DNA from: Chytriomyces cf. hyalinus JEL632
Lineage: Eukaryota > Chytridiomycota > Chytridiomycetes > Chytridiales > Chytriomycetaceae
Reading direction: 5' to 3'
Assembly (NCBI GenBank): GCA_025435555.1
Contig: JAIWWG010000012.1
Location: forward strand, 1-64,000
Length of the DNA: 64,000 bases
A model generated the notes under the pieces. The model saw nothing but the letters and a program-made list of their open reading frames with translations. It did no database searches and was not told the origin of the DNA. How positions within the stretch are numbered: position 1 is the first letter of the stretch; the number at the start of each line of letters is the position of its first letter. A program made the translations under genes and the position numbers. This document shows, piece after piece, positions 23,591 through 57,316 of this stretch.

Positions 23591-26500
23591 GCGGTGTCTC
23601 TATTCGGACATCAGGAACGAGCTTAAATCAATAAAAAAGACTGGATCGAGTCAACTTTGCATAGATGTGTTCACTGTTTCGATATCATAAATGCTCATCC
23701 TTGGTTGAACTCAATTTTTTGGTGGGATGTGGGCTTTATCGCGGCTCTCACTGCAAACGATAGTGATCATGGTTGCTCTCGGCTGACACGAAATCGCTTT
23801 TGCTTTTTGGAGTGTTCTGCTAAGTGTCGCTCTGGGTACGAATGCGACTACTTGGTTGTTTGTCAAGTCGCGAAACCTGCGTCGACTTGTTTAAAACTTC
23901 AAAGCAAGGTGATGGTCATCTGGGCTCTTTTTTGTGCCCTCTCAGATTCGGATTCTTTGACCTGTTGTCGACCGCTGCCTCTTGAGATTTATTATTGTGA
24001 ACGTGCGCCCGCGCCGCCATTTAACCGCGTGTTTGCATTCGCAACGCGGAGTCAGTCAGAATTTCGTATGACAAGAGTTTGTGCAATCTGCGTCTCTGTT
24101 CGATGAAATCACGCGTTGACTTGGAAGAAGTCTATACTGTCGCGTGTATTCTTCAATATTGCTGTTGTCGTTCAAGTATTTGTAAAACGGAACAACTCAT
24201 GAAAGCTGCACATGGAAAGAACAGGATCTGCTTACTTTTGAATGAGCCGCGTTGGTGGCGGAAAAAAAAATCTCTTTGAACAGGCAATCTTCAGATTGTC
24301 CATGCCGCCACCTTGACCCCACCCCCGTTGATATCCTCGAGCACTGAAGAGCAGTTGTTTTCAGGCTATTCCTCAAGTCGAATTGTACGTGGTGTATCCA
24401 GCCAAGGCAACTGCGACGAACGCCCATGACCTCCGCAAACCCCGCACGATCTCAGACTTTCAATAACCCCCCTCAAGGATGCCCCCCAACCGGTTCTCTC
24501 TGTATCTGGTCACTTTATATTGCCGTCCCTTTTTGATAATCGGAGTGTGCAAACATATTCAGTAATGTTTCATTGAGGTGAGGTTTATTTGACGTTTAAA
24601 TGCTGACTGAAACTGTTGTGGACCATCTCACATCCCGCAAAACATCCATGATCCCTTTGTATCTGGAGGAAGTGAATATGATGGAACATCAATATACATG
24701 GTCCACTTGATTTCTTTCTTTGTGCTGCTTGGCGAGCGTGTTGCCGCGTGGCTCCGAGCAATACATATCGAATTCGAAAACACCTCTCTTTGCAGCTGTG
24801 CATCGCAATTTCGGAATCTTTGTTGAATTTATCTCAATCGCATATCTTCTCGCCTGGTGGGGTGGGACGTGCAACCTCCCAACAAGTTTGAAGTCATCGA
24901 AAGTGCCTCGAGATGCGAGATTGACGATCTATGCCTGTCATTATGCTTGGATTCGAATGTACTAATAGGAAAGGACGCGATGATGCTTTGCGTGTGGATG
25001 CTGTGAGTGGGAAAAAACCAAGGGGTAGTGTCACAAAAAAGTAACTCATATGGGTGGAATTCCTGGGAATGTCTGATGGTTTGGACGAATTCCTGTGCAC
25101 CGTCTGGATATCTCTTTGGCGGCTCGTATGTTGTGACCAGAGTTTCTGTGCATGCGTCGCTGCCTCCAAGAAACCAGGCGCACTCAACCTGCAGATCGAA
25201 AGCTGCCCATCCGGCCGCTGGCTCTTTCGAATACTCCTATGAAGTCGTCATTTTGAATCCATACGGCAGAGTGTTGACACCGTGTTAAAACGTTTGTTGT
25301 GGGAGCAGATGTGCCAGCAGTCGAAGAAAACAGCCTTGATGCTCGCAAGGATTCTGCTGCTCGGTCTTGTATCGGCGATGTTTGGTGCTGGCGGTGCTGT
25401 CTGTCCGGGCGTCGGTGTCGGTGTCGGTGTTTGGGGTTGCTGGTGGAGTTGTTGTCGGATGTTTGTAAGTTTGTTATCGATGCTTGGCACTTTTTGGCGG
25501 GAAGGCCAGTTGGCGCATTTCTCTCTCTTGACGACTGCGCACGCACATTTTGACGCGCGTATAAATAGCGCGCTCTTGATGTCAAAAAACACACCCAAAA
25601 ACAAAGTAAGCATCAAACACACTCCCACTCCTTCCCCAACAACGTCTGCTCTAATCGATGACATTGGCTGCTTCTCAGCAGGTGCAGGTGTTCTCTTTTC
25701 GCATCGACGCGGCCTTATCCCAAGTCAAGCCGGCACTCTGCATCTTTGCGGGTCAAGTCCTCGCGTCAACGCCAAGGCATGCCCCCAAGACAGCCTCTCC
25801 CCACGGCCCGTACTCTCGACAAGACCATTGGCTGCAAACTGTACCCACTGACCAGAGCAACAAGTGGTTCTCGCACCGAGGGGGCGGGGTCATGCGGACG
25901 ACGCGTCAAACGGGGATGTCTGGTGCTGTGCAGGAAGGTGGAGCAGGAGGTGAGCGTGGTATGGGTGCAGGGAAACCGCTCGGGCAGCCAACTGAGAGCG
26001 CTCTTTCGCTCATGCCATGTCGTACACCTCTCCTGCTTCACAGCATTCAAGTCAAGTGGAGGCGGCTCTTGGAACTACGCTTGCTTGGATACTAACCTTG
26101 TTGTGTTGATTCTTCCATGTGTTTTGTTTGTTTTCATCCCCCACATTTTGCTTCTAACCCCCGCTTGCTCCCACTGACATTTCGAATAACTTCACCGTCG
26201 ATACGGCTGCTGGACGAACCATGGACACTGGACACTGACCCGGCCATGCTGGCCAACCAAGCACTAACCTTATTTTATAGGCGGTGGGATATGATTCAGG
26301 GCCTCTTCGCGGCTCCCACTGGAAACGAGAGCAATCTCGGCTGACACTGAATCGCTTTTATTTCTGTTTCTTTCTTGTGGAGTCTTGTGAAAATAAAGGT
26401 TCTGATTGTCAATGTACTTGTTGTGCTTGTGGATGTATTGCTTAAAAAAATGCTTGCGAGAATCCCCCACACCCTGCTTTCACAGTCGAAGTTGACCTGT

Positions 26501-27508
26501 CCCGCCCAGTCAAGCGCCTCAAAGACGGCATTCGATCTTAGATCAAGCAGCTCGTCAAGGGCGGTGAAGGAGGACCAACTGCGAGAGAACTAGGCCATGA
26601 ACTCGTCGGAGCGAATCGGCGCCTTTTTCGAATCCATTCCGCCACACGAATCGATTCACATGCATGTGATTTCTTTGGATGCTTGTAAGCTGCGCTCTTC
26701 ATTCATTTGGGACCCTGGTTTTTTGTTATTCAACATGGGATGCATTCATGTTCACCCACAGCCAGCAACAACTTGAGCGGCACACAAAACATCAAGGGCA
26801 AACCGATCGGCGCTCATATCACGTGAAAAGACTAATTTGCTGGAATGGGCCTGCCTGACGCTTGAAACCCAGCCATACGATCCTCTGATATCACCCGCTT
26901 GCTCTGGGAAATCAGCCACGGTTCAGCAGATTTCAGAAACAGTCAACCCTCAAACGAGAACATTGTTGGGCTCGGCATTGTCTCGTGGCAAGGCAAAATG
27001 AAATTGCCCTGACTCGTTGTGATGATTCTTGGTGGAAGAAAAATGCAAATGAGGTATTCCTCCATTATGACGCAGTGTTATTTCCTGGAGCATGTGTTTC
27101 CAGTTCGCTCTGAGTCTGTGCCGGGATCGCTGCGCCGGGATCGCTGCGCTCGCTGATTCAGCATTCAAAACTTGTTGAGCAGCCATCTTGCCTCTTTTAT
27201 TGCGAAAATGTTTGCACTGTTTGCGGGAAAGGCGTGACATTGCCAAGAGAAGTTGGATTCTATCTCAGTGGATCTCTTGGCTGGGTAATTGAAGTGTTGT
27301 GCAGGGACACGGGATATCGAAGCATGATGATAAATTCGGGAGACGGACGCTGTCCTGATCAAAAACAAAGTTTTTCAACACGGGCCAAAACTTTGACCGC
27401 AACGATCCGATTCAACTGAATTTGCTGTTTAACCAGGGAAACGAAATGATTCTTAGTGGCAAGCATCCCTGCACTTTCGAAGAGCGCGGCGCAGTTCTGT
27501 TTCTATGA
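23591..27508. other. Large spacer with duplicated blocks; no confident gene
   Basis: Holds the second copies of the 19-20 kb blocks (see 18376-21749). It also has a decayed three-way-junction element on the minus strand at about 23735-23810 and a good copy at 26293-26353. Longer frames at 25282-25851 and 25658-26177 (plus) are GC-rich and show no domain, plausible start context or splice sites. I leave them uncalled. Confidence 0.45.
26293..26353 (-). repeat. Three-way-junction element, copy 1 (core)
   Basis: Read on the minus strand: GATTCAG...CTGAATC ends, inner CGAGA/TCTCG hairpin with a 4-nt loop, then CCAGTGGGAGCC and GGCCC. Shortest copy (61 nt). Preceded on that strand by AATAAAAGC, shared with the copy at 36.4 kb. 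Confidence 0.75.
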
Positions 27509-29040
27509 ATGTTCATCTTTAAAAAGACCGTCGAACAGGAGAATGTCCGATCACTTGTCTCCTTGTTGAAGGCAGTGCAGCCGCAGAACAGCGGGTCTTC
27601 AAATGCAGCGACGAATAAGCTGCGCATTCTGGTCCAAGCAAGCGAGGAGAGAGGGGGCCTCGCGCTCAGTGTGTTGCTGCCACACAAAGTGAGCATGCAA
27701 TACCTCAAACTGACTAAACCGTGATTCACTGTACCTCTTGAATCCCTGCTCACAGACGTACCAGCTCAACGCTCTCCTGCCCATGAGCGTATTCTCAACG
27801 TTTTCTGTTTCAAACACCTCAGACAACGCCAACAACACCAACAACGCCAAAAACATGAACTCGGATGCACTTGTTCTCTGCGTGGACATGGACTCTCTCA
27901 TCGAATCCGCCTGCATTTTTGGCGGCTCTTCCGCGTCTCCGTTCAGCGCGATCAGCGAATCAGACTCTCAACCGCAACAACGTCACCCACTCAACAGCAA
28001 CAACCAACGAAACCCCATCGGTGCTGCAATGGGAGGATATCCGCCGCGAACCGGTTACCATTCACAAAAAAATGCGAATCCTTCAATGTCCGATTTACAA
28101 GTCGTGTCACTGTCGATGCTGCATGATCCGGCAGAAAGTACTCTTGTCTTGACGTGAGCCAGTTCTTGTTTCGGGATATTCGATAAATCTCTGTGTTGGT
28201 CACTCATTCTTGTTGTTCCCATGGGCAGTCTTCAAAACGCAGGTATCAAGACAGTGGCAAAACTGAAAACAATGGACGTTGAAAGCACACAAGAAGAGTT
28301 GTCTGAGATTGAGACACAATTGATGTTGCTTGTAATGTTCTCATGAAGGTGGTGATTGCCTTTCTTGTCCCCCCTCGCACACATCAAAACATTAATTTAA
28401 AAACAGTCCGTTTGGCTATCACACGCAATCTCCGAGTTGGACGCAACCACAGACACGTTTTGCATTCAAGTGCAAGATAAAACTCCACACTTGCAAATTT
28501 CTTCCAAAGGAACGGCTCAATGGTTGAATATGAAGGAGGGCAAGGAGGACCTGTTTCATCACCAAATGCAGATTAACATGATGCGCTTGAAAGGTTGAAT
28601 GTCCAAATGGAATGGTGTCACAATAGTTGAGAGAATCCTTTGTTGAGTTTTTGCTTTGGTTTTGGATTGACGTTGTTTTTTTGTTTTTTTTTTACGTCAG
28701 ATACAAGTACTCTGCTGTTCAGCCTGTACTCAAGCAATTGCTTCTATTGTCTGCCAAAGTCAGCATGCGTATCAATACAGAAGGAACTCTTTCCATGCAG
28801 GTAGCAAATTTATTTTGAGAGGATTCAGATGCATGTCACTAAAATAACTATCTCTCTTGGAATGAGCAGTTTATGGTTCCAGTTCAAGCAAATGAGCCAA
28901 CAAGTGCTGCTTCGACTGCAGATATGGGCTATGTGAATTTTGTGGTGAGACGTTTTTGCTTTCATTTTGAAGACAGAGTCTGACATGGAAACTAATTCCC
29001 CACTTTTTAACAGTGTCTCCCAGATGTTGGGTCTGCGTAA
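27509..29040 (+). CDS. RAD1: DNA-damage checkpoint clamp subunit RAD1 (9-1-1 complex), multi-exon
   Basis: RAD1 is one of three PCNA-like subunits of the 9-1-1 clamp that recruits checkpoint kinases to damaged DNA. Exon 1 (27509-27688) reads VEQENVRSLVSLLKAVQPQ and GLALSVLLPHK. After a 67-nt intron, TYQLNALLPMSVFSTFSV...ALVLCVDMDSLIESACIFGGSS matches the family's N-terminal PCNA fold. Later exons give STLVLTLQNAGIKTVAKLKT, SHAISELDATTDTFCIQVQDKTPHLQISSKG, YKYSAVQPVLKQLLLLSAKVSMRINTEGTLSMQ and a last exon YVNFVCLPDVGSA. The join before YKYSAV (about 28590-28700) needs either an unusual donor or a one-base correction. Same strand as CFAP65, 333 bp upstream of it. Confidence 0.88.
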
Positions 29041-29373
29041 GAGCTTCCAATTTACTAAAAAAGAGTGAAGCTTGATGAGCCTGTGAGATTGACACAAAAT
29101 GTTATACAGCTGCATGGTGTTTTAAGCAAATAAAAAGATGATATATTTATTGGAATTGTGTCACAATGCTCTGTTCTTTTTTACGTAAAGGGCATCATCC
29201 ATCAATGTGTGAAGTAACGACTTTTATTCACGCGGTTTATCGAAAAATTTAAAAACTTGACAAGTTTCCGTGTTTTGACGGATGAGCAAATCGATGCACG
29301 CAATCCCGCCAGCTGCAGGTCCATACACTCTCGATGCGCAACATGAATCTGGTCACCATGTACGCATTCTGTC
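29041..29373. other. Spacer between RAD1 and CFAP65
   Basis: AT-rich. I see an AATAAA-like motif near 29130 that could end RAD1. No exon or RNA gene seen. Presumably includes the CFAP65 promoter. Confidence 0.4.
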
Positions 29374-32300
29374 ATGAGTAGCACAACACACTCGAATTGC
29401 GATCATCTGACTTTTGTCCTTTCGAAACATCAGGTCCCAAATCCAAACACTTCTCTCGCATCAAAGATTGCTGCAAATCTGGAACCCCGCAAAAGCGTCG
29501 CTGGTTATATCTCGACTCCAAACAGAAGCGATAGGAAGCTTCAATTTGGGATTGACTGTGCAGAGCTGGTGCACTTTAGTCACTGGTGAGAACCCCATCC
29601 AGCTGTTCATGTATCAATGTTCTCATTAGCCTGCTACACTGCTCAAACACACTCTTGTTTCCAGGGAACCAGGCGGCGAACATGTCCAAAACCTGGTCAT
29701 CAAAAACGTGGTCATGAAGACACAGAAAATCAAATACAAACTGCCCAAAACGCGATTCTTTTCGATGGATTTTCCCGAAACAGTAACGCTTTCAGCCGGA
29801 ATGAGTTGGACGATTCCCATCACTTTCCGCCCTGTGGCAAAGGTGACTTGCTGTTTGACAAAAAAAAAACGTCAAATTCTGTGCTGACTTCTCTCAAAAG
29901 GAATGCTACACGGATGCTATTGAATTCACAACTTCGTTTGGGAGATTCTTGCTCCCAATCAAAGCGACGCTGCCTGAACATGTCCTCGAGCACCCGCCGT
30001 CCATCGATTTCACGCTTTGTCCAACTCGCGAGACAGCTCGACGCACGTTTTCGCTCAAAAATGTGGGAGAACTTGCAAGCACGTTTGAATGGGAAATTTC
30101 AAGTCCATTCCGGATTGCTCCGAGGATTGGGACTTTGAACCCTGGACAGGCCGTCACCATTGCGATTGACTTTCACCCGGAGGTTTGTAAATTTGATTTA
30201 TTGATTCGAGTTTCGGTTCAATGCTGAGTTTCGATATCTCGCATGGAATTCATAAAAAAGAACGCGTCTGTATTCACGGCTGTTGCGGTCTGCAACTTTG
30301 GCGACAAGAACCAATGGGAACGATCGAAAGTGACTCAAGCTGTGACGGTGTACGGAATCGGGAAATACTCGCATCTGTCGATCGAGAGCGCATCATCAAA
30401 CTTTAACTTTGGTCGCGTTTTTATTGGAAAGAGGCTCGAAAAACGGTTCAACATTTGGAATGATTCCGATGTGAGTTTTTGTGTTTCTTGATATTCGATC
30501 CCAGATCTGATCCCCAATGCTTATTTCATGCTCTGAATATGTGCGCGCCAGGTTCCGAGCAACTTTCGCATTGTTCGTGCTGAGAAAAACACGGAACCAT
30601 ATTTTCAATTCTCCACAACAGCTGGAACCATTGCGCCCCACAAAAACCTGGAAATATCGGTACCCCAGAGATTTCTCCACCGGATTATGCAGTCGTCCGT
30701 CCGACTTATTCTCTTTCCAGATCACATACATACCTGTCGCTGCAGGGATGGATTCGACGGAATACTTTGACATTGCCACCGTCTCTGGAAACACCATCCA
30801 CATCACATGCAGTGGAGTTGGCGCGGGTGAGACTTGATCGCTGTTTACTTTACGAGTCTCACACCCCTTCCAGGACCCTGCGTATCGCTCAACACTTCGC
30901 TGGTCAACTTCAACGACGTCCAGGCAAACACAACGTGCATGAGACCAATATACATCCAGAATGACGCCGCTGTCACTGCATTTTACCAGGTATGTTTCGC
31001 ATGCGGACCACACTGAACCTTAACCCATTTTTTTATCTTAAAAATAAACGCAGTTCCTGACTGAGCCAAACAGCCTATTTCGCATCGACAAACCCTGGGG
31101 CACCATCGGTCCAAACTCGTCAGTCGCCCTCACAATCCGGTTCACGCCAAAGGAACCCATTAACTACTATCGACGAGTATACTGCCTCGTCGAGCATCAA
31201 GATGCGTTGGTGGGGGGGTTTTCCTATCATCCAGACCCATGAATGCTTACTCGAATTGTCCACAGTACGTTGAGTTTATCGGGACGTGTTACAACGACAA
31301 GCGACGGCCTGCAACGTTTCATCCCAAAATGCTCGAAAATTACCGCCTCCGTGTTCAAAATGGGTTGTGGAGTTTTGGTCCAGAGCATCTGGAGGAGGTG
31401 CGTTATATTGAGTCATTCCTCCGTTTTGTCTCACTTACATTATGTCCCAGATGTTGAAGAGTGGGACTATTCAATGTCGCGATGGTGTCCTCAGTTTCAG
31501 CAACCTGGAGCGACAGAAGGATGTTGAGCGTGAGTGTGTTAAGTGCATATTCCTCGGTGTTGATTATCATCTGATAATGCGTGTTCAGACGAGATCTTGG
31601 ACTATCCATACAACGACGGACTGGTCTCAAGCGAATACTTTTACGAAAATACGGGATCGGACCAAGCCGTGACTCTGATGGACACATACATTGACTTTGG
31701 ATCGTGCTCAAAGTACCGCGTCATTGATCACCAAACGATTCGAATTCGAAACAATACCAGAGGAAAAATGTCGTGCGTCTGGCATATGCCTGGAGAGAAT
31801 CTGAGGTCAGTCTCAGAAGCAGCAGTGCCCCAATGAGCTGAACCCACATTTATCTTCGCAAAGCAGTGAAGAAACCGTGTTCACAGTCACGCCGGCCATC
31901 GCAGACATTGCACCCAAAAGCGCCATCGAATTCCGCGTTCATTTCCGTCCAAGAACCGATAATTCGTTTTTTGGACAACAGCTCGAATGTTTTGTCCATT
32001 TCAAAAGCATGAGAAACTTTCGGCTTGTGAATGACGACACGTTCACTCCGCCGTGGTGTTTGACACCGACTGTAGCTGGGTAATCCTTTAACATTACAAC
32101 TGGCACCAAGTCTGATGCTTTGTATATAGAAACACCTTCCCAGCTGGCCAAGACACGTTTATTCCCAAAATCGAATTTGGCGCAACAAGACTCGAATTCC
32201 CAGCAAGCCACGTGGACAAATCCGCCTACAGAACAGTTCGAATTTCAAACACGGGCGACACTCCCGTCAAGTTTGCGTTTGCAGACACGGACAACAAAAA

Positions 32301-35300
32301 GGATGCAGATATTGGTGGTGGGACTCGTGTTTCGTTTCAGGGCGGGCCGCCATTTTCTGTGAAACCGCGCATCGGGCTTTTGCAAAAGAATGAAAGTCGG
32401 TTGGTTGTGTTTCGTTTTAACCCTGGCGAGCAGAAGTTGTACGAGCAGGCTTTGCGCTGTTGTTTTAACAGTTCGTTGTCAAACTCCTATGTGAGTTGGA
32501 GCGCATTTTTTGTTTAATCGTACCTCTTTGATTTAGATTGTGCGCTTCACTGTATACAGGACTTACAGGTCAAGGGTATCGGGTTTTATCCACAACTTGT
32601 TTTCGAAAACCAAAATACGCTATTCTTCAAACCAACCTGCGTCGGAACCATTGCTCGCAGAAACTTTACAGCGAGAAACACTTCTCGAATCGCCATCATG
32701 TTTGAGGTTCGCCATTTATCCTTTTGTTTCCGCACTAGATAACTTAAACGCGCCAACAAATCGCCAGTGGAAAATTCCTAAGCAATACAGTAATTGCGTC
32801 TCCATTGACCCGATTTCAGGCGTTCTTCCAGCAAACAGTTCCATGTCGCTGACATGCACATTTCTTCCGACTTCTGAGAAGCATTGGTCCCTCAGATTGC
32901 CCTGCTATTACTCTCATGCATTGGAAGGTACGCACAACTTTGAATCAAGGTGAAGGATATCGCTGAATTCGAAGATACACACTCAGAAAACGAAATCACA
33001 CACGAAACCAAAACAAAACGCACAACGCTCATCCTCATTGGCACAGGAACATCTGCAACCATCTCCGCAGACCCAACGCTCCTCAACTTTGAAGCAATTC
33101 TTGTAAACACGATTGTCGAAAAAGAAATTGTTCTCCTCAATCCATCGGATGCAGATTTGTTTTATGACCTCGAAATCTACAAATTGACAAGAGCCGATTC
33201 TTGGGACATGGATTTGGAGGACGACAAAAACAAATTGAAAGAAACGGATCGATGCCCACTGCATATTGAAACGCGCGTCCCAAACAGCATTCGTGACTCA
33301 TTCCTGGAAATTGTTCAAGCGACGGACGTGTTTCCAGCGCGATCGAACCATACTTTGAAAATCCGGGCATGCGTGCAAGAACAAACCATGCATGCATTCC
33401 GAGTTTATTATGTGCTGAAACCGCAGAGTAAATTTGCGCCAGTGATTCCATGGGAGTTGGTTCCAGGCGCAATCACTGGCGGCGAAGACGCCAAAAAGAT
33501 TCATTTGTGCGACATTCGAGCATTGGGTGTGCATCCGATTGTTCAAGTGACGGATATTCGATGTGAAGGCATCAGCAAGTCTTTGCTGTGGAAGTTTTTT
33601 TCGCTGAATGCGTTCAATGAGATGCTCGAGACTGTTCAAGGAGAAGACGCTTCTCTCTCTGTTTCAAATGCAGTTGTGGTGCATCAAAAGTTGGACGAAG
33701 ACTTTGATTTCCCAACGGAAGGTGTCACTGGTGGCGAGTACAAGGAACCGCCGTCTTTGGACTATAATTTTGGTGCTGCTCCTACGGGGACACCTGCGTC
33801 GGTGGTTCACTTTAGTTTGATGAATCCAGGGGTTGTGCCGGTGGAGTGGGTGTACTACTTTCCCAATGATTTGGAGGTTGAGATTGAGAATTGGGCTGGT
33901 GAGAACTGGAATTTGGATAGCTTGGAACTTCAAACTAATGGCTTTGTTGTATCAGATCCGGGCGATTATACGGAGGAGCAGCTTCATACAAACTTGATAT
34001 TGGACAACGGCCTGTTTTCAATAAGCCCGAAAGTAAGTTTCACTGAATGTTGGTGATCGTTGTTTAACCGGCCCTTCGCACAATTTAGATGGGAGTTCTC
34101 AATCCTGGAGAGTCTGCGCACATTAATATGTCGTACAATCACAAGTTTCCAGGCCTGCATAAGCTGCCTGTCGTTTTCAAACTAAAGAACGGAACCACAC
34201 GAGCTGGTAAAGTTTTCAGTTCTATCCAAATACACTGTATTCACCCCCTCCTGCTTCGACAATTCTTGTTCTCAGGAAAGGAGATTATTCTGTACTTTAT
34301 CGGCACAACAATCCCATTTGAGCAGAAATGCCTTCACTTCCATTCAGCACATCACACTTTCGCGCCAGTTTCGATCGGAACCTCACACCCGCCAATCCAA
34401 AGCTTCCGTCTTGCAAACCATGGGCTGTTGCACTTGACTTACACAATCGATACTGCACCGTTGCAAAATTTTAAAGCGGCGGAGCATGATTTTGCAGTTT
34501 TCGCATGTAACAAAGTGACTGGGTCTATTCCGCCTGGAGGGGTTGAATTTGTTCATTGGGTGTTCAGGCCGCTGGAAGCGCGTGAATATTCGGTGATTTG
34601 CTTTCGTATTTCGACGCATTTCTTATCCGTTTTTCACTGACTACGCATTCAGGTCGATGTTTCCATCACGACTGATGATGGCAAAACTTCAATCATTACA
34701 TTTTCAGGACACGGAATCGAAGAGGTAAACGATCTCGCCCTATTCTTCCACTGTTCTAAAAAACAACTCAATCCCTCCACAGCCACCACACATTGCCTCC
34801 TTGAATGCAAAGTCTGAAGACAATGTGCCATCATTGCAAATCCTGTCAACATCAAAACAAATCGCCCGTTTATCAAGAGAACACATCAACTTTGGCGCAG
34901 TTCCGTTGGGTTCGCAATCCCGTGATCTGATTGTTGTGCGAAATACAAGCGCAACCGATAAAATATCCTTTCAGTGGCGCGTTCCTCTGGACGCGCTTTA
35001 CGGGCAAGTGGAGCATCAACAGTGCATCCAGATCACGCCAAGTGAAGGTGTGCTGGAAGCGGGAGAGTCGCGGTTTGTAAAGATGGTGTTTGTGCCAGTC
35101 TCCAATGTTTGTGTGTATGATTTGGATTTGGAGTGTGTTGTTGTGAATGAGACTCAAAAGGTGAGTTTTGCTGAGTTCAATTGCGTTTTAGATTCATCAC
35201 CTAACAACTTTCATATGCGCGTGCAAGGTGGCCTTTGAGCATTTTCAAGAAACTGTGTCAATTGCAATCCGCGAAGGCCGCCTTTCGATGGATCCTCGAA

Positions 35301-36256
35301 CAGTATCGCCATCCACAACAACAGCAAACAAACCGCTTCTTGGCAGCGCTGGAAGTTCGAAACATGCTCTTCGTGGTAGCAAGTACAGTCCGCTTCCGGA
35401 AATATATAATGCGGGAGTGAAAGCGCCTGGGATTTCGGTTCCTGACTTGTTTAACACGCCGCTTGGCGCAGTTTCTCATAAACCTGTGGACACAGGTTTG
35501 ACCTGAAAAGCTGTTTCATTGGTCATACTTCTGTATATATTGACTGGCAAAAGTAGGGATTGATTTCGATGCTGCGCCGATTCAACCAACGCCTCAGTCA
35601 CTGTTCGTTTCTGTGCAAGCGCAATCCTTCACTGCAAACACGTTCCGATGCATCTTTGACGGACAAGAAAAGCTGTATCATCCTCACCGGTCCAATTACG
35701 CGAAAATTCAAAAGGAAAAAGTGGTAAACATTTTTCTTTTATCAGGTGCTCTTTTAGGGTTGGGAAAAACTGATTCAGGTCTGTCAGGTTTTTGCTGATG
35801 GTGACCAGTTGAATCTATTCCAAAGCACGATGGAAGAAATGATGGATGAAATTTTTCAGGACCCAGAAGTACAGGCGTTGGTTGCGCCACCTGGAACTAC
35901 TACACCTGGAAATGATGGCAGTTTCGGGATGTTGCCGTACTTTGCACAGATCTCTACAAACGAAAAGAGAAATGGCATCTTTTTGGCTCCCAGTTTGGAC
36001 GCGTCTGATGAGGGTAAAAATGAAACTCCGACTGGAACAGACGTTCAAGATTTGTTTGCGTCTGAAGTATTGGGGTGAGTCTGTTGGGGTATGATTTCGC
36101 ATTCTCATCGCAACCCCATTGTTTTACAGTGCAAGATACTTTCAAAACTGGGTCGAGAACATTCTCGAAAGCACATTGTACAATTTGATTCAGGAAGCAA
36201 ACGTCGGCGAGTTTGATGTGACCAAAGAATGTTTTCTGCTGTGGCCCAAAGAATGA
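29374..36256 (+). CDS. CFAP65: Cilia- and flagella-associated protein 65 (CFAP65), about 24 exons
   Basis: CFAP65 is a large multi-ASH/MSP-domain protein of the motile-axoneme central pair. Joining exons with short GT-AG introns gives roughly 1,830 residues, close to the family length. Diagnostic stretches are HFSHWEPGGEHVQNLVIKNV near the N-terminus, SLKNVGELASTFEWEISSPFRI, ITYIPVAAGMDSTEYFDI, YVEFIGTCYNDKRRPA, YNFGAAPTGTPASVVHFSLMNPGVVPVEWVYYFPND, LFSISPKMGVLNPGES and HHTFAPVSIGTSHPPIQSF. The last exon is ARYFQNWVENILESTLYNLIQEA. Clear introns include 29586-29664, 29843-29900, 30660-30720, 31210-31265, 32707-32767, 32928-32986, 34033-34088 and 36075-36129. All junctions I tested keep frame with no stop, so the gene looks functional. 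Confidence 0.95.
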
Positions 36257-37134
36257 AATAAACACTTGATAAAGAATGCATGCCCACAACAACAGGTGAG
36301 TTTATCCAGACCCGCTCAACAGTTACGCTATGAACACAATTATTGGCAAGAGAAAGCGAGCATTTATATGTGACAGGAAACGTGGCTTTCTTTATTTTGC
36401 AACAAGAACGAAACAGAATAAAAGCGATTCAGTGTCAGCCGAGAGAAAAGGATTGCCCTTTACTCTCGTTTCCAGTGGGAGCCGCGAGGAGGCCCTGAAT
36501 CATATCCCACCAAAAAATTCATATCGCCAAAGTAACTTGGCTGTGGTAGCACCAATCCGGTGTACATCCCTTCAACATCATAGACACATCCATCCACGTA
36601 TTGATGTCCATCGTGGCCCCGTAGTGCCAATCCGGCAATGTGCTATGTGTCCTGTCAACATACCCCTCATGGCGCCCGTAGTTCAACGGCAGCACAGCCA
36701 TCCACGTATCGATATCCGTCAAGGCCCCGAGGCGTGCTGTGCTATGCGCATTGTTGTGATGGACATTTTGGGATATAAATATAAGTGCGTGATGAAAATT
36801 GTGGGGCAATTTTATTTTCGAAAACCCGCCCAAAAACAACCGCTAAAGTACACAAAATGCTGTGTTCATGTGGTCACTGTAAGAAGCCGCTGTTCTATGA
36901 GAGGGCATGACAGGTTGCTGTGTCTGCCTTCGTGACCTTCCTTATTTCGTCGTCCATCCACAGCAACAGTCCATCCAAATTCACTCCATATCTGCGCGTT
37001 AAATTAAGGAAGCGAATGTCAGTGAATTTGATGTGACCAAAGAATAATAAAACAATTGGTCAAGTATCAAGAGTTCTCGATTACTGGCACTTTATTAAGC
37101 ATGCCCCCTACTGTTTAAATCCTCCCGCCCATCG
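36257..37134. other. Repeat-bearing spacer between CFAP65 and TRM2
   Basis: Holds three-way-junction copy 2 (36426-36501). It also has a segment at about 36570-36700, internally repeated (CATCCACGTATTGATGTCC-type units), that recurs at about 43470-43600. No gene seen. Confidence 0.55.
36426..36501 (+). repeat. Three-way-junction element, copy 2 (core)
   Basis: Outer stem GATTCAG/CTGAATC, hairpin 1 CGAGAG/CTCTCG, then GTTTCCAGTGGGAGCC with GGCCC forming hairpin 2. Core is 76 nt, followed by ATATCCCACC. Confidence 0.8.
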
Positions 37135-39329
37135 TCAAACATGCACTTCGTCTTTGTAAAGGTCCTCCCGAATCAGCGTCGTCACAACCTCAATCCGATG
37201 TGAATGTGGAAACATGTCAAACGGCTTTACATTCAGCACGTTGTATCCCTTCACTTTCAAAAGCGTAACAGGAGCAACACTGGTCCTATCGTTAAATTCC
37301 CGCCGGACAGGATCACTACTCCCAGCCACATCTTCCACACTCACTTCTGCCACTCCATTCACTGAATTCCTCACAATCTTCTTGCCTCCCAAATACAGTA
37401 CTCGCGAATTATCAAGCCCAGACTGCACTCTTCCAGCTTCTTTTTCGCCCTTTAATAACCGCCCCACACTGCCTTTGAAACTTGCTGGCGGGACACCTTC
37501 GAGCGCGCAATTGCGCATGAATTGCAAATCTTTGACTTGCGACGCAGGATTGCAAGACACGTAGACAATAAACGCAGGATTCAGCCGCATGACTTGGTGC
37601 ATGAAATCCAATGAACACCCCTTTTTAGGCGGATCCAACACCAACGCAATATCATCGCCAATTGTTTGTGGATTCACCATCGACTTTGAATGCTGCAGTT
37701 GCTGATGCACCATAGACTCGACAGCGCCTTGAAACAAGTCCGAAACATCCCCGGAAATGAATCGAACAACCGTTTCATCGTGTAACCCGTTATCGAGCGC
37801 ATTTTGGCGGGCCCAGGATATGGAGTCGCGGTCAAGTTCAATTCCAATCACGTTTTTGAAAAGTTTCGCTAGCGTGATTGCAAACAGTCCTGTGCCACAA
37901 TATGCATCGATTAACGTGGATGGTTTCGATTGGAGTTGATGTAGTTGCGACGAAATGTGCGCAATAATGTGCGGCAGAATATGTGAATTGTTTTGGTAGA
38001 ATGCATTGGATGGCGAGCGGAGAATGTGGCCATTGACAACGTCCGTCACAGTTGCTGTTTTCGAAGTGATGGGGTATGCGCGCATGTTGGATGGCGGGTA
38101 AGGCTGGATTGGAGACACAGCTGGAGTGAGATTGAGCGTCGATGCAAGTGTGGGGGGTTTCGCGGCAGGGGTTTGGGCGGCTCGAGGACGCTGCTGCTCT
38201 GCTTTGATGCGTTTTACGAAATCAGACAAGTCCATTGTTTTCGATGCCTTTGGGGTCTTTTCGATTTCGGTTGATGGATTTGATGAAATTGGACGCAGCG
38301 TTTGACGCACTTGGTACGTTGCTCCGAGCCGCCTTTCAGCGGATCTTGATCCAATAATACGCGACCTGTAACAATACAGAAATCAGTCTCTCTTGAACAT
38401 ATATGTATAAAAAAACGAAAAATAGAAGAGTTACTACTACCTCACAATTTGAAGCGCGTCATTGACGGCGTCGGTTGCAATTGGACAATTTTCGACATCC
38501 ACCACAGCCATTGCCCGCCCTCGTTCTAAAAACCCAATCTTGTCCAAAACGGAATCTTCCCAAATGATGGGATGATGCGGCGACAGCTTCGTGCGCACGC
38601 CTTTATCTTTCGGGGACTCCTGAATCGGGAGGAAAGCTGCATCGGGGAGGCTGAGTGGCGCGTAGTATTCTCTGACGCAATTTTCTTTATGTTCGAGTTG
38701 ATATGAGTATGTGAGGTGCTGGTATGAGCATCCAGAGCATGTTGCGTGGAGTTTGCAGAATGGTTCGACTCTGAATTTGCTTTTTTCGTGGACTTGGACC
38801 AGCTCGCACAGCGACGCACCCATTCCATGGCGATATGGCTTGACAGAGACCATCTAGGTAGACAGTTGAAGCATGCGCTGCATGGTCAAACAGCGTTCAA
38901 GAGGTTCCAATGTGCGAACCGACTCACCTCGCCAACAGCCACGGTAGGTACAAGCAGGAGCCATCCATTTTCTGCAACACAGACTCCATATCCTCGTTCA
39001 GATAGGTGCAGCACCTTGAGCGGAGTAGTTTCGATCTGGAGTGGGAATGCGCGCGAGAGAGACAGTAGGTGCATCAGATATTCGTTCTTGGTTGGGTCCT
39101 TCGTATCTTTTTGAGCCTTGCTTCCATCATTCGTGGCGGCATCTTCGAGAGTGTATTCGAGAGGCCTGTCGAGAGTTGACTGGACTCCCAGGACAGGCAA
39201 GACAGGCAGGTAATCTCGCAAGACAAAGGCATGCTTGAGCTGTCTGATGGACCGTGAATCCGATTGGGGAGCAGACGAAGCTTGCGAGAAGAGACGCGCG
39301 CCGTGAAAGCGGATCCTGACTGGCAGCAT
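37135..39329 (-). CDS. TRM2: tRNA (uracil-5-)-methyltransferase, TRM2/TrmA-RlmD family, three exons
   Basis: Makes m5U (usually at position 54 of tRNA) from S-adenosylmethionine. Exon 1 (38928-39329) carries a basic, Ser/Arg-rich N-terminus (MLPVRIRFHGARLFSQ) that could be a mitochondrial targeting signal. Exon 2 (38441-38853) has the iron-sulfur-type cysteines CKLHATCSGCSYQH. Exon 3 (37135-38365) carries SPSNAFYQNN, the SAM motif LIDAYCGTGLFAI, GIELDRDSI, VLDPPKKGC and the catalytic-Cys motif YVSCNPAS, ending MFPHSHRIEVV...LIRED. Introns are 38854-38927 (74 nt) and 38366-38440 (75 nt), both in frame. Its start codon is only 22 bp from that of the divergent F-box-like gene. Confidence 0.95.
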
Positions 39330-39351
39330 CCCTTTGGTTGTCGATAGAAAT

Positions 39352-40677
39352 ATGGAAGAAAAATCAAAAATGCATCTCCCACTCGAAGTGCTTGTGCTTG
39401 TTCTCAGCTGGGTCGACAGCAGCCGAGATGCTGTCCATCTTCTTCTTGCGTACGACTCGCTCTTGTACGCGGTGCTGACAACCCGGACCCTTCAGGCACG
39501 GATGAAACGACTCGTTCTTTGCGAATCTGACTCCACCGACGCTGTGCATTCAACAGAATCGACACTCGAGACTGCGCCTGTGAGGTCCTCTGAATCCTAT
39601 GCATCGGAATCGCAGTTGCGTGCGTTTACTCGGCGACTCCTTCGAATGCATCCAACGCAAGGGCACAGCAACGTAGTCTCATTCTCGCTGGACTGGACCC
39701 TTTTTCTCATTGCGAAACATTTTGGCGCGATCTGCGAAAACTGTCTCGTTGCCAGATTCAACCATTCCGATTTTGCGATTGTGTCTGTTTCGTATTCCGA
39801 AGAATCCATCCCATCCATCAACGTCAACTCTCACTCACTGTCGCTCCATCAGGCAAAAGTCTTGATGGCGTGCTTGCCTTCCGCATCAAAACCTTCATGC
39901 TGTCGAACAACTGTCCCAGCTTCAATCGCTCCTTTAAAACCTGCGAAAGAAGATGAACTCGAATCTACTTCAAAAGTCATAAACGATTGGTGCGCGCGAG
40001 TTATATCCCGACGTAAACAGCGCACCATGCTGCGATCTTCGTGTCTCGAAACGTCAAAAAAGTGGATGGGTGGAACACATATTGAAGGATGGACGCCTGC
40101 TGTTCCGAAATACTCTGCACCAGCTGATTCAGATTCAGATGAAAATGGCGATGAAAACGACCAACCAATCAAAGAAGATGATGAAATCCAGAGTGACCGA
40201 CATGCCAAAGTACCCTCCTCAGCAACAGCAGCCGCACTTTCAGCAAAATGCCCAGGGTGCCAATTCCGATATTGTAACCCATGCATCCAGGCAGTCAATC
40301 CATGTCCTTCTTGCAGTGCTCAACTATGCATGGGTTGTTTTCCTCCAGACATCACATCCGACTCTTTAGCGTTCCTCGCACGGCTTGACCCTGCCACTCC
40401 AGTTTTCTCTGATTCAAGCACTTCTTCCACCCCTCTCGGCAACCCTGCCGCATTTGAAAAACGGCAAGCCGGGCGATCATTGGAATGTTCCTCTTGCAGC
40501 AAGAAATTCTGCGTTGGTTGCGCAAATTTAGAACCATGGCAAATTAAGCAGATGGAGACTCGCGCTGACCCAGAGGCGAATACGAGGCTGCAGGCTTTTT
40601 CGTGCGAACAATGCCGCGATTGGCACGCGTATGCGAATACAGGCACGCATCATGAGTTTGAAGAGGAGTGGAATTGA
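39352..40677 (+). CDS. F-box-like protein with Cys-rich (zinc-binding) C-terminus
   Basis: Single exon, about 441 residues from the ATG at 39352. The N-terminus (HLPLEVLVLVLSWVDSSRDAVHLLLAYDSLLYAVLTTRTLQARM) has the LP...L..IL.W......L.....S...... pattern of an F-box. The middle is variable and acidic (SDSDENGDENDQ). The C-terminus has repeated CxxC pairs: CPGCQFRYCNPCIQAVNPCPSC, CMGC, CSSCSKKFCVGC and CEQC, consistent with several zinc sites. If the F-box is real, the protein would be a substrate adaptor of an SCF ubiquitin ligase with the Cys-rich part as reader. That is inference. Convergent with the desaturase gene, 180 bp apart. Confidence 0.65.
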   Translation: MEEKSKMHLPLEVLVLVLSWVDSSRDAVHLLLAYDSLLYAVLTTRTLQARMKRLVLCESDSTDAVHSTESTLETAPVRSSESYASESQLRAFTRRLLRMHPTQGHSNVVSFSLDWTLFLIAKHFGAICENCLVARFNHSDFAIVSVSYSEESIPSINVNSHSLSLHQAKVLMACLPSASKPSCCRTTVPASIAPLKPAKEDELESTSKVINDWCARVISRRKQRTMLRSSCLETSKKWMGGTHIEGWTPAVPKYSAPADSDSDENGDENDQPIKEDDEIQSDRHAKVPSSATAAALSAKCPGCQFRYCNPCIQAVNPCPSCSAQLCMGCFPPDITSDSLAFLARLDPATPVFSDSSTSSTPLGNPAAFEKRQAGRSLECSSCSKKFCVGCANLEPWQIKQMETRADPEANTRLQAFSCEQCRDWHAYANTGTHHEFEEEWN

Positions 40678-40856
40678 GCCATTCTTTTTTTTTTGGCGGT
40701 CTTATTCTGGGTGATTTGTTGTACAAAATGAAGACAATATGTTGATACACTTAACAAACGTTGCAATCTATCTCTACTATTGATTCTCATTGGATTTTCT
40801 TGTTTCTGTATTCCCTTGTCATCTTCAACTCATAACAAGCCCTTAAAAAATAGAAA

Positions 40857-42651
40857 TCACTCCTTCTTGTCACTATCACCCGCAATCTCAACGCCCCCCT
40901 TCTTTCCCTTCGCAGCCTCCACTTCTTCAACTGTAAACTGCTTTGTCCTCTCCTTCAGCCACGCAACGCGTCCTTCGATGGACGTAATTTTGGCACCGAT
41001 TCCCACATTGTCCACCATTTTACTCGCAATTCGCTCATACCAGTGCGTCATGAGACAAAAGAACATTTCCTCGTAGTCTGTGTTTTGGAGCACGATTGCG
41101 TTTTCGTAGATGCTGCGGTTTGCTAGGAATGTTCGGGGGTGTTCGGTCCAGTGGCCTGCAAGTTTGATTAGTTTTTGAATGAGTGGGGGGTAGTGCATAG
41201 AAGAATTTTTTTGATTCTTACGGTGAGCATTCAGGTGGTGCGATGCGTGGTAGCCGTCATTGAAACATAGCGCGTTAAAACGCGTGCTGATGATGGTGAT
41301 GGAGTTTGAAATTCCGCCGCCCAGAGGTGATTCTCGGTTCAAAAAGGCGTGCTGCGTCCTAGATTGATGAAGCAATAAAATGAGTTTTCTGTCGAAAACA
41401 GGAATATACTGGGAATCACGCACCAGTTTCCACTCATCATAAAAAGTCTAGACAGGTTGAAGGGCACCCATACACAAACAAGCATTGGGTAAAAGTTGAA
41501 ATACGAAAGTGTCCCAAACAACGTCATGCTCAAGGCCTCGCAGCCGAGCGCCGTCAATCCCCGGCTCCTTTGATTGTGGTTCATGAAGTAGACAGTGAGC
41601 TCGTACCACACCAAATAGTAGAATCGTCCAAAGTAGCTGAGGAAAATTCGTATCAGAATCCTTTTGGGAGAAGGGGGTATTTGAGACCAAAAAAACTCAA
41701 CTGCAGAAAGTGAAAGATATTGTCTCTTTGGTAAAAGAGTGTTGAAGAAGTATCTTCGGGGCTGTTGTCTGCGACGTGGTGCATCTGCAGATTTTCGATT
41801 TCGTTCGTGAGCTTATCGAAACAAAACATTCAGGTCCCGCGCCGGGACGACATCCAGAAATATAAATCGACTGTTCGCATTGTTTCTTCCTCGTCCAATC
41901 TCGCCGAATCCGTTTTTGCAGGGCCCGGCGCAATTTATCCGAGAACGACATGTGAGTCAATCTGATGCGGTTTTCTCACCTTAATGTGATGCAGAAAGTA
42001 CGTGTAAAAGGTCTGCCCAAAGAAGGGTCCCACGACAATTGGCAGCCAGTAATCGTTCAGGTAGTCGCTTTTGAAGACTTTTCGGTGGCTGCTGACGTGG
42101 AGTGCGAGATGATAAGGTCCGATTTGGATAATGGTTGCCACAATGTGAGCAATGGTGTGGATCCAGGAGAACGACACAAAGTACAGGTACAGGAACGATG
42201 GGAGAAGCGTGACTGTTGTTGGTGGTGGTGCAAGACTGGGTGAGCACTCGGCAGATTTCGGGAAGCCGCGCATGCAGCGGGATGGAGGAGAGCATTCGAA
42301 CAGGTTTCATTCGGGATCACAGAAAGAGAACGCTGGGGACTGACCCTGGCCCGTCAAAGGCCAGAGCCAACTTTTGCAACCAACACAGCAATAAAAAGAT
42401 GGGTCACCTGTTGCGCAGAGAGCCACGTTAAAGACCTGAACATCCCGCCTGTCTCTGAGAAAGAGGAAGGCAAACTGCTCATACAAGTTGAGCGGGGAAA
42501 TGTTGGCAACGACTGAGAGATGGCTCTTGGGGTACTTGGACAGGACACCGCCTCGGTCGAAGCCGTGTGATACTGTTTGCTCCACCGGCCAGTTGGCAGC
42601 GAGTGCCTCGAGGATGTTGGTGTCGTCCACGAGGATCTTCTTGGCCGTCAT
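40857..42651 (-). CDS. Membrane fatty-acid desaturase/hydroxylase-like protein, about six exons
   Basis: The start MTAKKILVDDTNILEALAANWPVEQTVSHGF (42651) is followed by SKYPKSHLSVVANISPLNLYEQ. Clear exons are 41980-about 42260, 41702-41784, 41424-41636, 41222-41358 and 40857-41155. They give WIHTIAHIVATIIQIGPYHLALHVSSHRKVF, YFLHHIKMHHVADNSPEDTSS, YFGRFYYLVWYELTVYFMNHNQRS, GTLSYFNFYPMLVCVWVPFNLSRLFMMSGNW and the histidine box NDGYHASHHLN. The HHIKMHH and HxxHH clusters are the di-iron ligands of the desaturase superfamily. Introns 41637-41701, 41359-41423 and 41156-41221 keep frame; one donor is GTTGAG. The join between the first exon (ending near 42410) and the TM exon is unclear, and an indel may be present. 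Substrate cannot be read from sequence. Confidence 0.82.
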
Positions 42652-42755
42652 GTTTGATCAAATTGTTTTTTGAAGTTTGAACACAGTTTCACGACTTGCA
42701 CCATCAGCAGCTTTATTGCATACACCTCCCACAAGAACAAAAACGAAATAAACGC

Positions 42756-42831
42756 GATTCAGTGTCAGCCGAGAGCAAAGCATTGTCCTTAACTCTCGTT
42801 TCCAGTGGGAACCGCGAGGAGGCCCTGAATC
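42756..42831 (+). repeat. Three-way-junction element, copy 3 (core)
   Basis: 76 nt, about 90 percent like copy 2. The CGAGAG/CTCTCG stem and both other stems are kept while the hairpin-1 loop differs. Preceded by AACGAAATAAACGC and followed by GTATCCCCCC. Confidence 0.8.
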
Positions 42832-42861
42832 GTATCCCCCCAAAAAATGGAGATTGCCACT

Positions 42862-43385
42862 CAAACAAAGCACCCAGCATCGCAACCATGACCGAAGTCC
42901 ATGTCCAACCAGAACCGGAGTCGTGGCGGGTTGATTGCGAGCGGGTGCTTTGTTTTCGGGACTGTAAAAATATGACATGCCTGGCGCGTCACGAGAATAT
43001 GGAATCACACAGCTTGTTCACTGTTAATAAACCGGAGAATGACAGCAGTTAGTAACGGCACCTACGCGTTAAACAAAAAAGAAGGAAACTTCATCTTCAC
43101 TCCTTCAGACAGCTTCCGTGACCCAGAGTTTTACTGTCGAGACCGTAGCCCAAACCCCAACAAGTACCGACGTAGTGGTGAGCCGACTCAACTCAGACAA
43201 AGCTTGCGACATCGCAACCGTGACCGAAGTCCATGCCCAACCAGAACCGGAGTCGTGGTGGGTTGATTGCGACCGGGTGCTTTGCTATCGGGACTACAAA
43301 TAATGGCATGGCGCGCCACGAGAATATGGAATCACAAAAGATTCACTGGTAAGAAAATTGGAGAATGAGAGTGGTTAGAAACTGC
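42862..43385 (+). repeat. Direct repeat of about 190 bp, two copies
   Basis: Copies at about 42862-43060 and 43196-43385 share CGAAGTCCATG..CAACCAGAACCGGAGTCGTGG, GGTTGATTGCGA..GGGTGCTTTG and ACGAGAATATGGAATCACA, with scattered substitutions. The intervening 135 bp is unrelated. Function unknown. Confidence 0.8.
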
Positions 43386-44199
43386 ATCAACATGTTCACA
43401 AATGAAAAGGAGGGGAGCTGACCTTTGCTCCTTTACATTATGAGTGCCGAGTCAACATACCGTCATGGGCCGTAACACCAATCAGGCGCGCATCCCCTTA
43501 ACATGATAGACACAGCCATCATCATATTGATGTCCCATCGTGGCCCCGCGGCGCCAGTCCAGCACTGTGCCATGGGTCCTGTCAACATGCCAGGGCGCGA
43601 GAAATCAATCGTATGAATACAAGAGAGGTAAAAGAAGAAAATAACTCACATAAACAATACAAAAAAGAATACCTTTGGAAATTCCCGCGTTGATGCCCAG
43701 CGCATCACCACTTGCACTGAGCCGCCTTCCCATGTACATGTGGACATGCATATGGGGAATTACCACGCCTCAACCTGTGCAGTGATGGTTGTTTGGTGAT
43801 GGAGTTTAGAAGACGATCGCATGATTGGAGAGAGGAAAATAAAGGGCTTACTTGAAATTGCCATATTGTTTGCTTGAATCGTTCGCGTTTGAGCTCAATG
43901 CAGCACCACTTGTACTAAGTTCTACCATCCCATAAGACTCGTATGAGTCGATACCCTTCCCCATAATGCACGGATTCTAACGCGGCTGGCATAACTGCAG
44001 ATGCGAGTAACAGAAGGAGGGCACACAAAATAAAAGGGTTCGAAGAAATAAAAGCCCAAAAAGAAGAAGATTGGGCGGATGTGTGCCCAACCCAAGTTAC
44101 CCTCACCATCGTAGCAGCGTGCCCCGTGCTTCGATTTGTCGACCCATGATCCAGCAGCTATGACCCCGTGAAAATATATCCAACTAACCCATAACCAGT

Positions 44200-44274
44200 G
44201 ATTCAGCGTCAGCCAAGTAGGAGTGGTGTCCTCCATTCTTGTTTCCAGTGGGAGCCGCGTGGAGGCCCTGAATC
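44200..44274 (+). repeat. Three-way-junction element, copy 4 (core), with compensatory changes
   Basis: 75 nt. Hairpin 1 is CAAG.../...CTTG instead of CGAG.../...CTCG, so both sides changed and pairing is kept. An extra GGAG/CCTC pair extends the stem. Outer stem GATTCAG/CTGAATC is unchanged. Confidence 0.8.
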
Positions 44275-44353
44275 GTATCCCACCACTGTAAAAGAAAAAG
44301 AAAAAGAAGTTCTGCAGATGGGGCAACGTAGCTGTGCGATAACGCACCTCCAT

Positions 44354-49078: not shown

Positions 49079-49150
49079 GAATCAGGCCTTGAAAAGTGCG
49101 CCCGGAAACGAGAGCCACATTGGCAGCACGGCGGCGCCGAATCGCAGTCA
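49079..49150 (-). repeat. Decayed three-way-junction element
   Basis: Shares GGAAACGAGAG, an AATCAGGCC-like start and a GAATCGC end with the intact copies read on the opposite strand. Lies directly after the truncated sensor fragment's stop. Confidence 0.45.
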
Positions 49151-56192: not shown

Positions 56193-57253
56193 TTATTTCT
56201 TTCTGCGGCAATGGCCCAACAGGATACGATTGCAATTTGCTCTTAAATCCCGGTCAAAAACAAGAATAATGATTGGGTTCACGGCTTCGTAAAGACTGAC
56301 GACAATGGTTGTCACAAAATCAAACGCAGGTGACGCCTGCGTCCCCGACGCGTACTCCCATAAAGCCACTGTATGAGTTGGAAAATGTCAGCAGGCTCGC
56401 ATGCTTACTGGGACAGTTCTACTCAACTTATAATGTATGGAGTCCATCCAGTGAGAAACGCCCCGACCACCATAATACTCTGCTTCATCAGCTGAGCCTG
56501 CCGCGTGTCCATGTTTGTCTTCTCCAACGTTTTCCACGTCATACTGATGAACGACCCCTCTGTTACCGATCTCGACTCAAGAACATTCTTCACCTCGCCT
56601 TGTTCAGATGGTTTGATGACCCCGGACTCCCTCGTGCTCTCCTTCAATTTGGAAAACACGTCGTGAACCGTGCCAATCATGGCCGCATACGCAAACACAA
56701 TCGATCCACACGTCACAGCAATGACAATGAAACAGAACCAAATCAATACTCCGCTCCTCGAATCATGCTGGCTCCATCGAACGCCGCAATAAATACTACT
56801 GGGACGTAGAATGTAGGTTTGAGTCGTTTGTAGCATGAATGGAAGCGAGGCAACCACCGCCGCCAAACACAGACTTCCGAGGAAATAGAACGAGGCAAAG
56901 TAGTGGGGTGGATTCAGTTGCTGCACGACGACCAAATATCGGAACAGGGTGAGTCCAAAGCAGAGGAGCAAGGAAGTGACATTTCCAAAGACGGAGATGA
57001 ACGCGTGAACTTGACACATAAACAGAGTGTTGTCCATTCCTCCCTCCACTAACGCCTGCACTGTAATGTACAGGTTGTTCGCTATGGCAAAGACATCAAA
57101 GAGACACAGCCAAAACACCAGGAATGAGCTTGGCGCTATTTTGCGGAGGCTGCCTATGTTGGGAACCACCACTAAGAGGTTGAGGCACATTCCAACACCC
57201 AGGATGACGCCGTGTGTGACTAGAAACGCGAGGTTCAGCCCGTCGAGCGGCAT
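56193..57253 (-). CDS. Class A (rhodopsin-family) G-protein-coupled receptor, two exons (GPCR2)
   Basis: The start at 57253 (MPLDGLNLAFLVTHGV) aligns with MALDTLSYWF of GPCR1; an upstream Met at 57358 is possible. Landmarks are LCLFDVFAI (TM2 Asp), MCQVHAF (TM3 cysteine, present here), FRYLVVVQ at the DRY position, YILRPSSIYCGVRW (ECL2 cysteine), AFLTGWTPYII in TM6 and SLYEAVNPIIILVFDRDLRANCNRIL in TM7/helix 8. A 59-nt intron (56369-56427, donor GTTGAG, branch CTGAC) interrupts TM6 at the same codon and phase as in GPCR1. Ser occupies the retinal-lysine position. It likely couples to a heterotrimeric G protein; ligand unknown. ICL3 is long and polar. Confidence 0.87.
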
Positions 57254-57316
57254 TGCGATTATCACCAAATTATCAAGTAATATGCACAGCATTAGTAAAT
57301 CAGACTGAAAAAATAA

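Follow-up and report, generated by a model that had tools for sequence, protein, structure and literature searches.

Dispersed HDV-like ribozymes in Chytriomyces cf. hyalinus and their possible role at transcript 3' ends

The first 64,000 nucleotides of contig JAIWWG010000012.1 of the chytrid Chytriomyces cf. hyalinus JEL632 (positions 1 to 64,000 of the forward strand; this whole stretch is the window referred to below) contain several copies of a short structured element. An initial annotation had described it as a dispersed three-way-junction RNA, with four good copies and two decayed ones. This raises the question of what the element is and what it does in the transcripts that carry it. 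Judged by its sequence, the element almost certainly fits the fold of hepatitis delta virus (HDV)-like ribozymes, and its intact copies are very likely to be active as ribozymes.

Fold and class of the element

Ribozymes of the HDV-like class have a P1 helix of about 7 bp starting with a G paired to U or C, P2 crossing P1, P3, a two-base P1.1, P4 of free length and a J4/2 with the CNRA motif, which includes the catalytic C. The base at position -1 is not G, and self-cleavage leaves a 2',3'-cyclic phosphate and a 5'-OH. The element studied here comprises P1 (GGTGGGA/TCCCACT, with G·U as the first pair), P2 (GATTCAG/CTGAATC), P3 (GCC/GGC), P1.1 (CC/GG) and a P4 hairpin; L3 reads TCCTCGC, and J4/2 contains CTGA, a form of CNRA. 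The three-way junction was rejected because P1 and P1.1 cross P2: the stems previously seen belong to a double pseudoknot of HDV-like type, in which they are P2, P4 and a portion of P3. P1, P1.1 and J4/2 had been overlooked because the strand was reversed. The copies themselves are real, but the functional strand is plus for copy 1 and minus for copies 2-4, and each copy had been drawn about 10 nt too short, leaving out the P1 strand GGTGGGA, the partner of TCCCACT.

The four good copies stand, scoring 88.5-106.6 bits with R1, a model built from 26 copies that include these four. The family members in the window are as follows:

26283-26353, plus strand: HDV-like ribozyme copy 1; R1 91.1 bits; short P4 with a GCAA loop; predicted cleavage between 26282 and 26283
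36426-36511, minus strand: HDV-like ribozyme copy 2; R1 106.6 bits; predicted cleavage between 36512 and 36511
42756-42841, minus strand: HDV-like ribozyme copy 3; R1 91.3 bits; 6 of 7 P1 pairs formed
44200-44284, minus strand: HDV-like ribozyme copy 4; R1 88.5 bits; compensatory change in P4
23721-23795, plus strand: decayed copy; R1 54.2 bits, E 8.9e-14; 5' strand of P2 deleted

The last of these corresponds to one of the two decayed copies claimed earlier (about 23735). The other, near 49079, is not a member of the family, R1 giving no match there up to E 10 with default filters.

Matches to the Rfam models of HDV ribozymes were obtained below the gathering scores. RF00094 (HDV_ribozyme) matched copy 2 with 42.4 bits (E 0.0042; gathering score 50) and copy 3 with 32.4 bits (E 0.34), while RF02682 (HDV-F-prausnitzii) matched copy 1 with 33.3 bits (E 0.0094; gathering score 44). 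Three out of three further ribozyme loci matched HDV_ribozyme with 33.7-39.7 bits. The copies thus lie below the 50-bit membership threshold of RF00094 as curated. Neither a hammerhead nor any other Rfam family reached gathering in the window or in nine further loci, in agreement with the earlier remark that the element does not match the hammerhead core.

Distribution in the genome

The genome searched has 242 contigs and 37.78 Mb in total. When at most 3 mismatches were allowed, the 21 bases of the 5' strand were found at 69 places (none for the reversed control), and the 3'-strand pattern also at 69 (two for its control). We examined 68 copies with their flanks (26 + 42), namely 67 from the 69 places of the 5' strand plus C171. 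The two places outside this set are C41:55989 (L084), which scores 92.5 bits, and C2:493391 (L075), where the 3' half is lost. Seven 3'-strand places absent from the 5'-strand list were fetched and inspected, several one-mismatch ones lying beyond these: L088 looks intact, L085, L086, L087 and L090 are decayed, and L089 and L093 have no clear ribozyme. A source in viruses or prokaryotes found no support: there were no exact matches in viral_contigs (two patterns) or in genome_contigs (one pattern), although diverged relatives would escape such patterns.

Some ribozymes occur in pairs. L037, L038 and L039 have same-strand pairs 0.84-0.9 kb apart, the first member following a 3' splice-like and the second a 5' splice-like sequence. 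Pairs about 2.4-2.6 kb apart are present in L016 (1430 and 4074), L009 and L022, one member being decayed in L016 and in L009, and also in the window (the decayed copy at 23721 and copy 1 at 26283).

Covariation and conservation

The large alignment includes 61 of the 68 copies (50 distinct); the seven dropped as decayed or irregular are L046, L054, L056, L062, L066, L067 and the first copy of L039. Standard pairs fill 96.6% of its cells, compared with 27-47% when partners are slid. It has 39 doubly changed cells versus 12.5 in shuffled alignments, and a covariation score of 0.133 versus 0.095. Each of these three measures (paired cells, doubly changed cells and covariation score) was reached by none of 500 shuffles; two more, given below with the points that weigh against our reading, do not exceed the shuffles. 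P1 is paired in 99.1% of cells, its first pair being GU in 43 and GC in 7 of the 50 distinct rows. P2, P3 and P1.1 are paired in 98.0%, 96.0% and 98.0% of cells, with no both-sided changes, and P4 in 93.2%, with both-sided changes in six of its nine pairs. The first 26 copies (23 distinct) show eight pairs changed on both sides, all in P4, a number matched by 2 of 500 shuffles. The change of CGAG/CTCG to CAAG/CTTG noticed earlier in copy 4 is real; in the 50 distinct rows the pair concerned is GC in 38, AU in 9, GU in 1 and unpaired in 2. A dispersed structured RNA with covariation and loops of free length, as first proposed, is thus borne out.

Parts needed for catalysis are also conserved. 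Of the 68 copies, 62 have CNRA at its fixed place in J4/2, where N is T, A or G. The base at -1 is T in 57 copies and C in 11, a pyrimidine in all 68, while other GGTGGG sites in the window and the long loci are preceded by a pyrimidine in 48 of 109 cases. Identity over the first 44 bases is 91-100% in the 24 paralogue pairs chosen for comparison; it is 55-100% in the upstream flanks, 38-100% in the downstream flanks and 33-100% in the P4 part.

Position relative to AATAAA and upstream sequences

In 51 of 68 copies an AATAAA comes no more than 100 nt after the ribozyme. Within the long loci this holds for 19 of 26, while each of the 14 control windows gave 0-3 among 25-26. The ribozyme is quite probably placed on the 3' side of transcripts. 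What was earlier read as an AATAAA-like motif before the element is a TTTATT directly after the ribozyme, seen from the opposite strand; sense AATAAA does exist further downstream of copies 1-3. The features flanking the window copies are:

26392-26397, plus strand: AATAAA, 38 nt past copy 1
36391-36396, minus strand: AATAAA, 29 nt past copy 2
42712-42717, minus strand: AATAAA, 38 nt past copy 3
26264-26280, plus strand: putative 3' splice-like sequence CTAACCTTATTTTATAG, labelled by pattern, stopping 2 nt short of the predicted cut of copy 1
36512-36517, minus strand: six consecutive T directly before the predicted cut of copy 2
42842-42847, minus strand: six consecutive T directly before the predicted cut of copy 3
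25560-25566, plus strand: TATA-like sequence upstream of copy 1, a possible promoter for its transcript

Classified by pattern, the sequence directly before the ribozyme is a T run in 38 copies, 3' splice-like in 18, 5' splice-like in 10 and neither in 2 (n = 68). Splice-like sequences beside the cut (28 of 68) suggest a competition between splicing and cleavage. Some of the upstream bodies consist of tandem exon-intron-like repeats, with a period of 237 in L018 and 230 in L025; inspected by eye, these bodies are apparently noncoding.

The motif GG[AG][CT]ACTG, often as ATGGRYACTGRGG, was found in the 600 nt upstream of the ribozymes 34 times in sense and never in antisense orientation, in 16 of 29 loci. 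The 150-750 nt downstream contained no sense and one antisense occurrence. The count covers the 26 long-locus copies plus L077, L078 and L079, paralogues being counted apart. The motif is common to the 3' sides of cyclin-like genes (see below) and to noncoding-looking families. F-box-like frames lie near the ribozymes of one family, in L079 (Pfam below cut-off, E 0.016) and L012 (by eye). Elsewhere in the window there are two frames for rhodopsin-family 7tm_1 receptors (5547-6446, plus strand; 56423-57358, minus strand) and CFAP65-like exons (32950-34640, plus strand), which suggest a eukaryote with cilia.

Cyclin-like gene family

A search with a 280-residue core from L078 gave 23 matches at 17 loci, and at 15 of these 17 the matched stretch is followed, 0.45-1.5 kb further downstream, by a ribozyme in the same orientation. 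The two loci without the element, C207 and C216, are fragments, and no ribozyme was found in the stretches fetched there (best 8.6 bits). The family can be described as divergent and cyclin-like. Two members score 23.6 bits with Pfam Cyclin_N, barely over its cut-off of 23, and Cyclin_C is below cut-off in two of the six proteins scanned (E 0.002 and 0.067). A four-row profile compared with PDB gave cyclin E1 and B1 in all 16 sequences listed (best E 5.2e-5). The L078 sequence on its own found no cyclin in PDB, the best match being a UL34 protein (E 0.087). Little weight is given to the structure model, which is poor (pLDDT 46): the best fold matches listed are cyclins, and none of 135 reaches E 0.001. 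The remaining 14 of 16 Cyclin_N matches have no adjoining element, as compared by hand with the list of 69 places. A literature search found no HDV-like ribozymes at cyclin gene 3' ends; its coverage was partial and one search was loose, so it is no proof of novelty.

Proposed role and alternative explanations

From the fold, the P4 covariation, the conserved core, the pyrimidine at -1, the position before AATAAA and the cyclin-like link we infer cleavage, its timing and its consequences for expression and regulation. We moderately favour a self-cleaving ribozyme in transcript 3' ends that would separate the poly(A) signal from the transcript body; whether it takes part in choosing the 3' end seems about evenly balanced, leaning slightly towards yes. 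The ribozyme would usually lie between the body and AATAAA. During RNA synthesis the double pseudoknot would fold and cut directly before G1 of GGTGGGA. The upstream RNA, whether the mRNA of a cyclin-like gene or a repetitive noncoding RNA of spliced appearance, would keep a 2',3'-cyclic phosphate and have no poly(A) tail, such ends being proposed because of the fold and position, and the ribozyme with AATAAA and the tail would be released as a separate piece. The fate of the message would then be set by cleavage versus splicing and polyadenylation. For the T-run class (38 of 68) the cut would leave an oligo(U) end.

A bolder version, which we hold only tentatively and think doubtful, is that some 60-70 HDV-like ribozymes act as a 3'-end module reserved for certain transcripts, those of a divergent cyclin family and noncoding RNAs with several exons; self-cleavage would compete with polyadenylation or replace it. 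In this version the oligo(U) ends of the T-run class would carry a cyclic phosphate, as U6 snRNA does, and U6-type end-binding proteins could stabilise these RNAs. If true, ribozymes would be a part of ordinary cellular RNA end-making and cell-cycle gene control. To our knowledge, genomic HDV-like ribozymes are mostly servants of mobile elements or single cases; a large set of them, linked in both position and strand to the 3' side of genes for one protein family and of spliced-looking noncoding transcripts, would show recruitment for host RNA 3'-end control.

Several observations weigh against cleavage at transcript 3' ends. In the 61-copy alignment both-sided changes are confined to P4, the number of pairs with such changes (6) is matched by 177 of 500 shuffles and the number of further pair types (23) by 369, and the copies are related, so that the counts are not independent. 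CNRA is absent from its fixed position in 6 of 68 copies, and L020 and L023 have a disrupted P3. No HDV model reaches Rfam gathering in the window or the nine further loci (best 42.4 of 50 bits), and copy 4 has no Rfam match up to E 10. As for placement, 17 of 68 copies lack AATAAA within 100 nt, including the first copies of the L037, L038 and L039 pairs and window copy 4, which has none in 250 nt downstream. Two of the 15 cyclin-linked loci (L054, L056) have a decayed ribozyme, and there are stop codons inside some cyclin-like matches.

The strongest alternative, which we regard as rather unlikely, is that short non-autonomous retroelements of about 110 bp, made up of a ribozyme and a tail with AATAAA, have or recently had the ribozymes as their 5' ends, in the manner of R2 or L1Tc/NARTc/SIDER; the position in transcripts would then be incidental. 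A past mobile origin is possible: where two copies differ in the rest of their flanks, the homologous stretch that they share opens at or close to the cut (0 to about -24) and runs out at about +46 to +135. In trypanosomatids, too, SIDER elements carrying HDV-like ribozymes are located in 3' UTRs (PMC4035085). Duplications around the module, however, show no excess, matches of at least 9 bases occurring in 2.9% of cases versus 3.0% in the control (68 copies, exact matches, shuffled pairings). R2-type elements need not make target-site duplications. Among the 150 reverse transcriptase matches listed (150 of 193 candidates were scored), the nearest is 7.9 kb from the 69 places, as compared by hand; one decayed copy, C2:593015, is 5.6 kb from a listed match. 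The tandem arrays L081 (C238) and L082 (C66), which bear RVT_1 and have periods near 5.9 and 5.45 kb, were free of ribozymes over the roughly one period examined per array, other retroelements not having been searched over their full length. The upstream sequences can be grouped into a few families with splice-like or T-run borders. In these tests neither a reverse transcriptase body nor target-site duplications of the R2, L1Tc or SIDER kind were found, and they gave no support to the idea that a larger transposon ends in these copies.

Loss of cleavage, with the RNA structure conserved as a protein-binding 3' UTR element or by recent duplication, would account for some clearly broken copies and for several families that are recent duplications (flanks up to 100% identical). 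We consider it improbable, as the conserved parts are those that catalysis needs: the G·U or G-C first pair, P1.1, CNRA with a free N and the pyrimidine at -1. Still further from our preferred reading, and very improbable, is an assignment of the ribozymes to the 5' ends of downstream genes, whose leaders they would trim. A same-strand ATG frame (42651-42307) does begin about 105 nt downstream of copy 3, and in L079 the F-box-like frame follows the ribozyme on the same strand; against this, AATAAA comes after most copies and the cyclin-like link is to the upstream gene at 15 of 17 loci.

Comparison with known systems

The topology of P1, P2, P3, P1.1 and P4, L3 and the J4/2 core are common to the element and to HDV and HDV-like ribozymes (RF00094, RF02682). 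The element differs in a J4/2 longer by one base, in a single unpaired G that separates P2 from P3, in Rfam scores below gathering and in its many copies in a eukaryotic genome.

The hammerheads of rodent Clec2 3' UTRs lie between the stop codon and the poly(A) signal and are expected to lower the amount of tailed message; their fold is hammerhead, here it is HDV-like. Hammerhead retrozymes carry hammerheads in direct terminal repeats. Retrozyme-like direct repeats are unsupported here, since the three tandem pairs (0.84-0.9 kb) share the ribozyme and not the adjoining bases, as judged by eye, and no hammerhead family was at gathering in the window and nine loci.

The CPEB3 ribozyme belongs to the HDV-like class. 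It is self-cleaving, lies inside its host gene and is said to affect expression (PMC10919898). That ribozyme is intronic, whereas those described here lie near transcript 3' ends in dozens of copies.

The nearest described case found is that of trypanosomatids. L1Tc/ingi elements carry HDV-like ribozymes, Leishmania SIDER2 copies are found in 3' UTRs, and exaptation has been proposed (PMC4035085). Both systems have dispersed HDV-like ribozymes, in Leishmania and Trypanosoma in SIDER and L1Tc, some of them in 3' UTRs. In trypanosomatids the SIDER/L1Tc ribozymes stand at the 5' end of retroelement-derived sequence, while here no element body or duplications were found; in Chytriomyces AATAAA usually follows the ribozyme and a cyclin-like gene family is its common neighbour.

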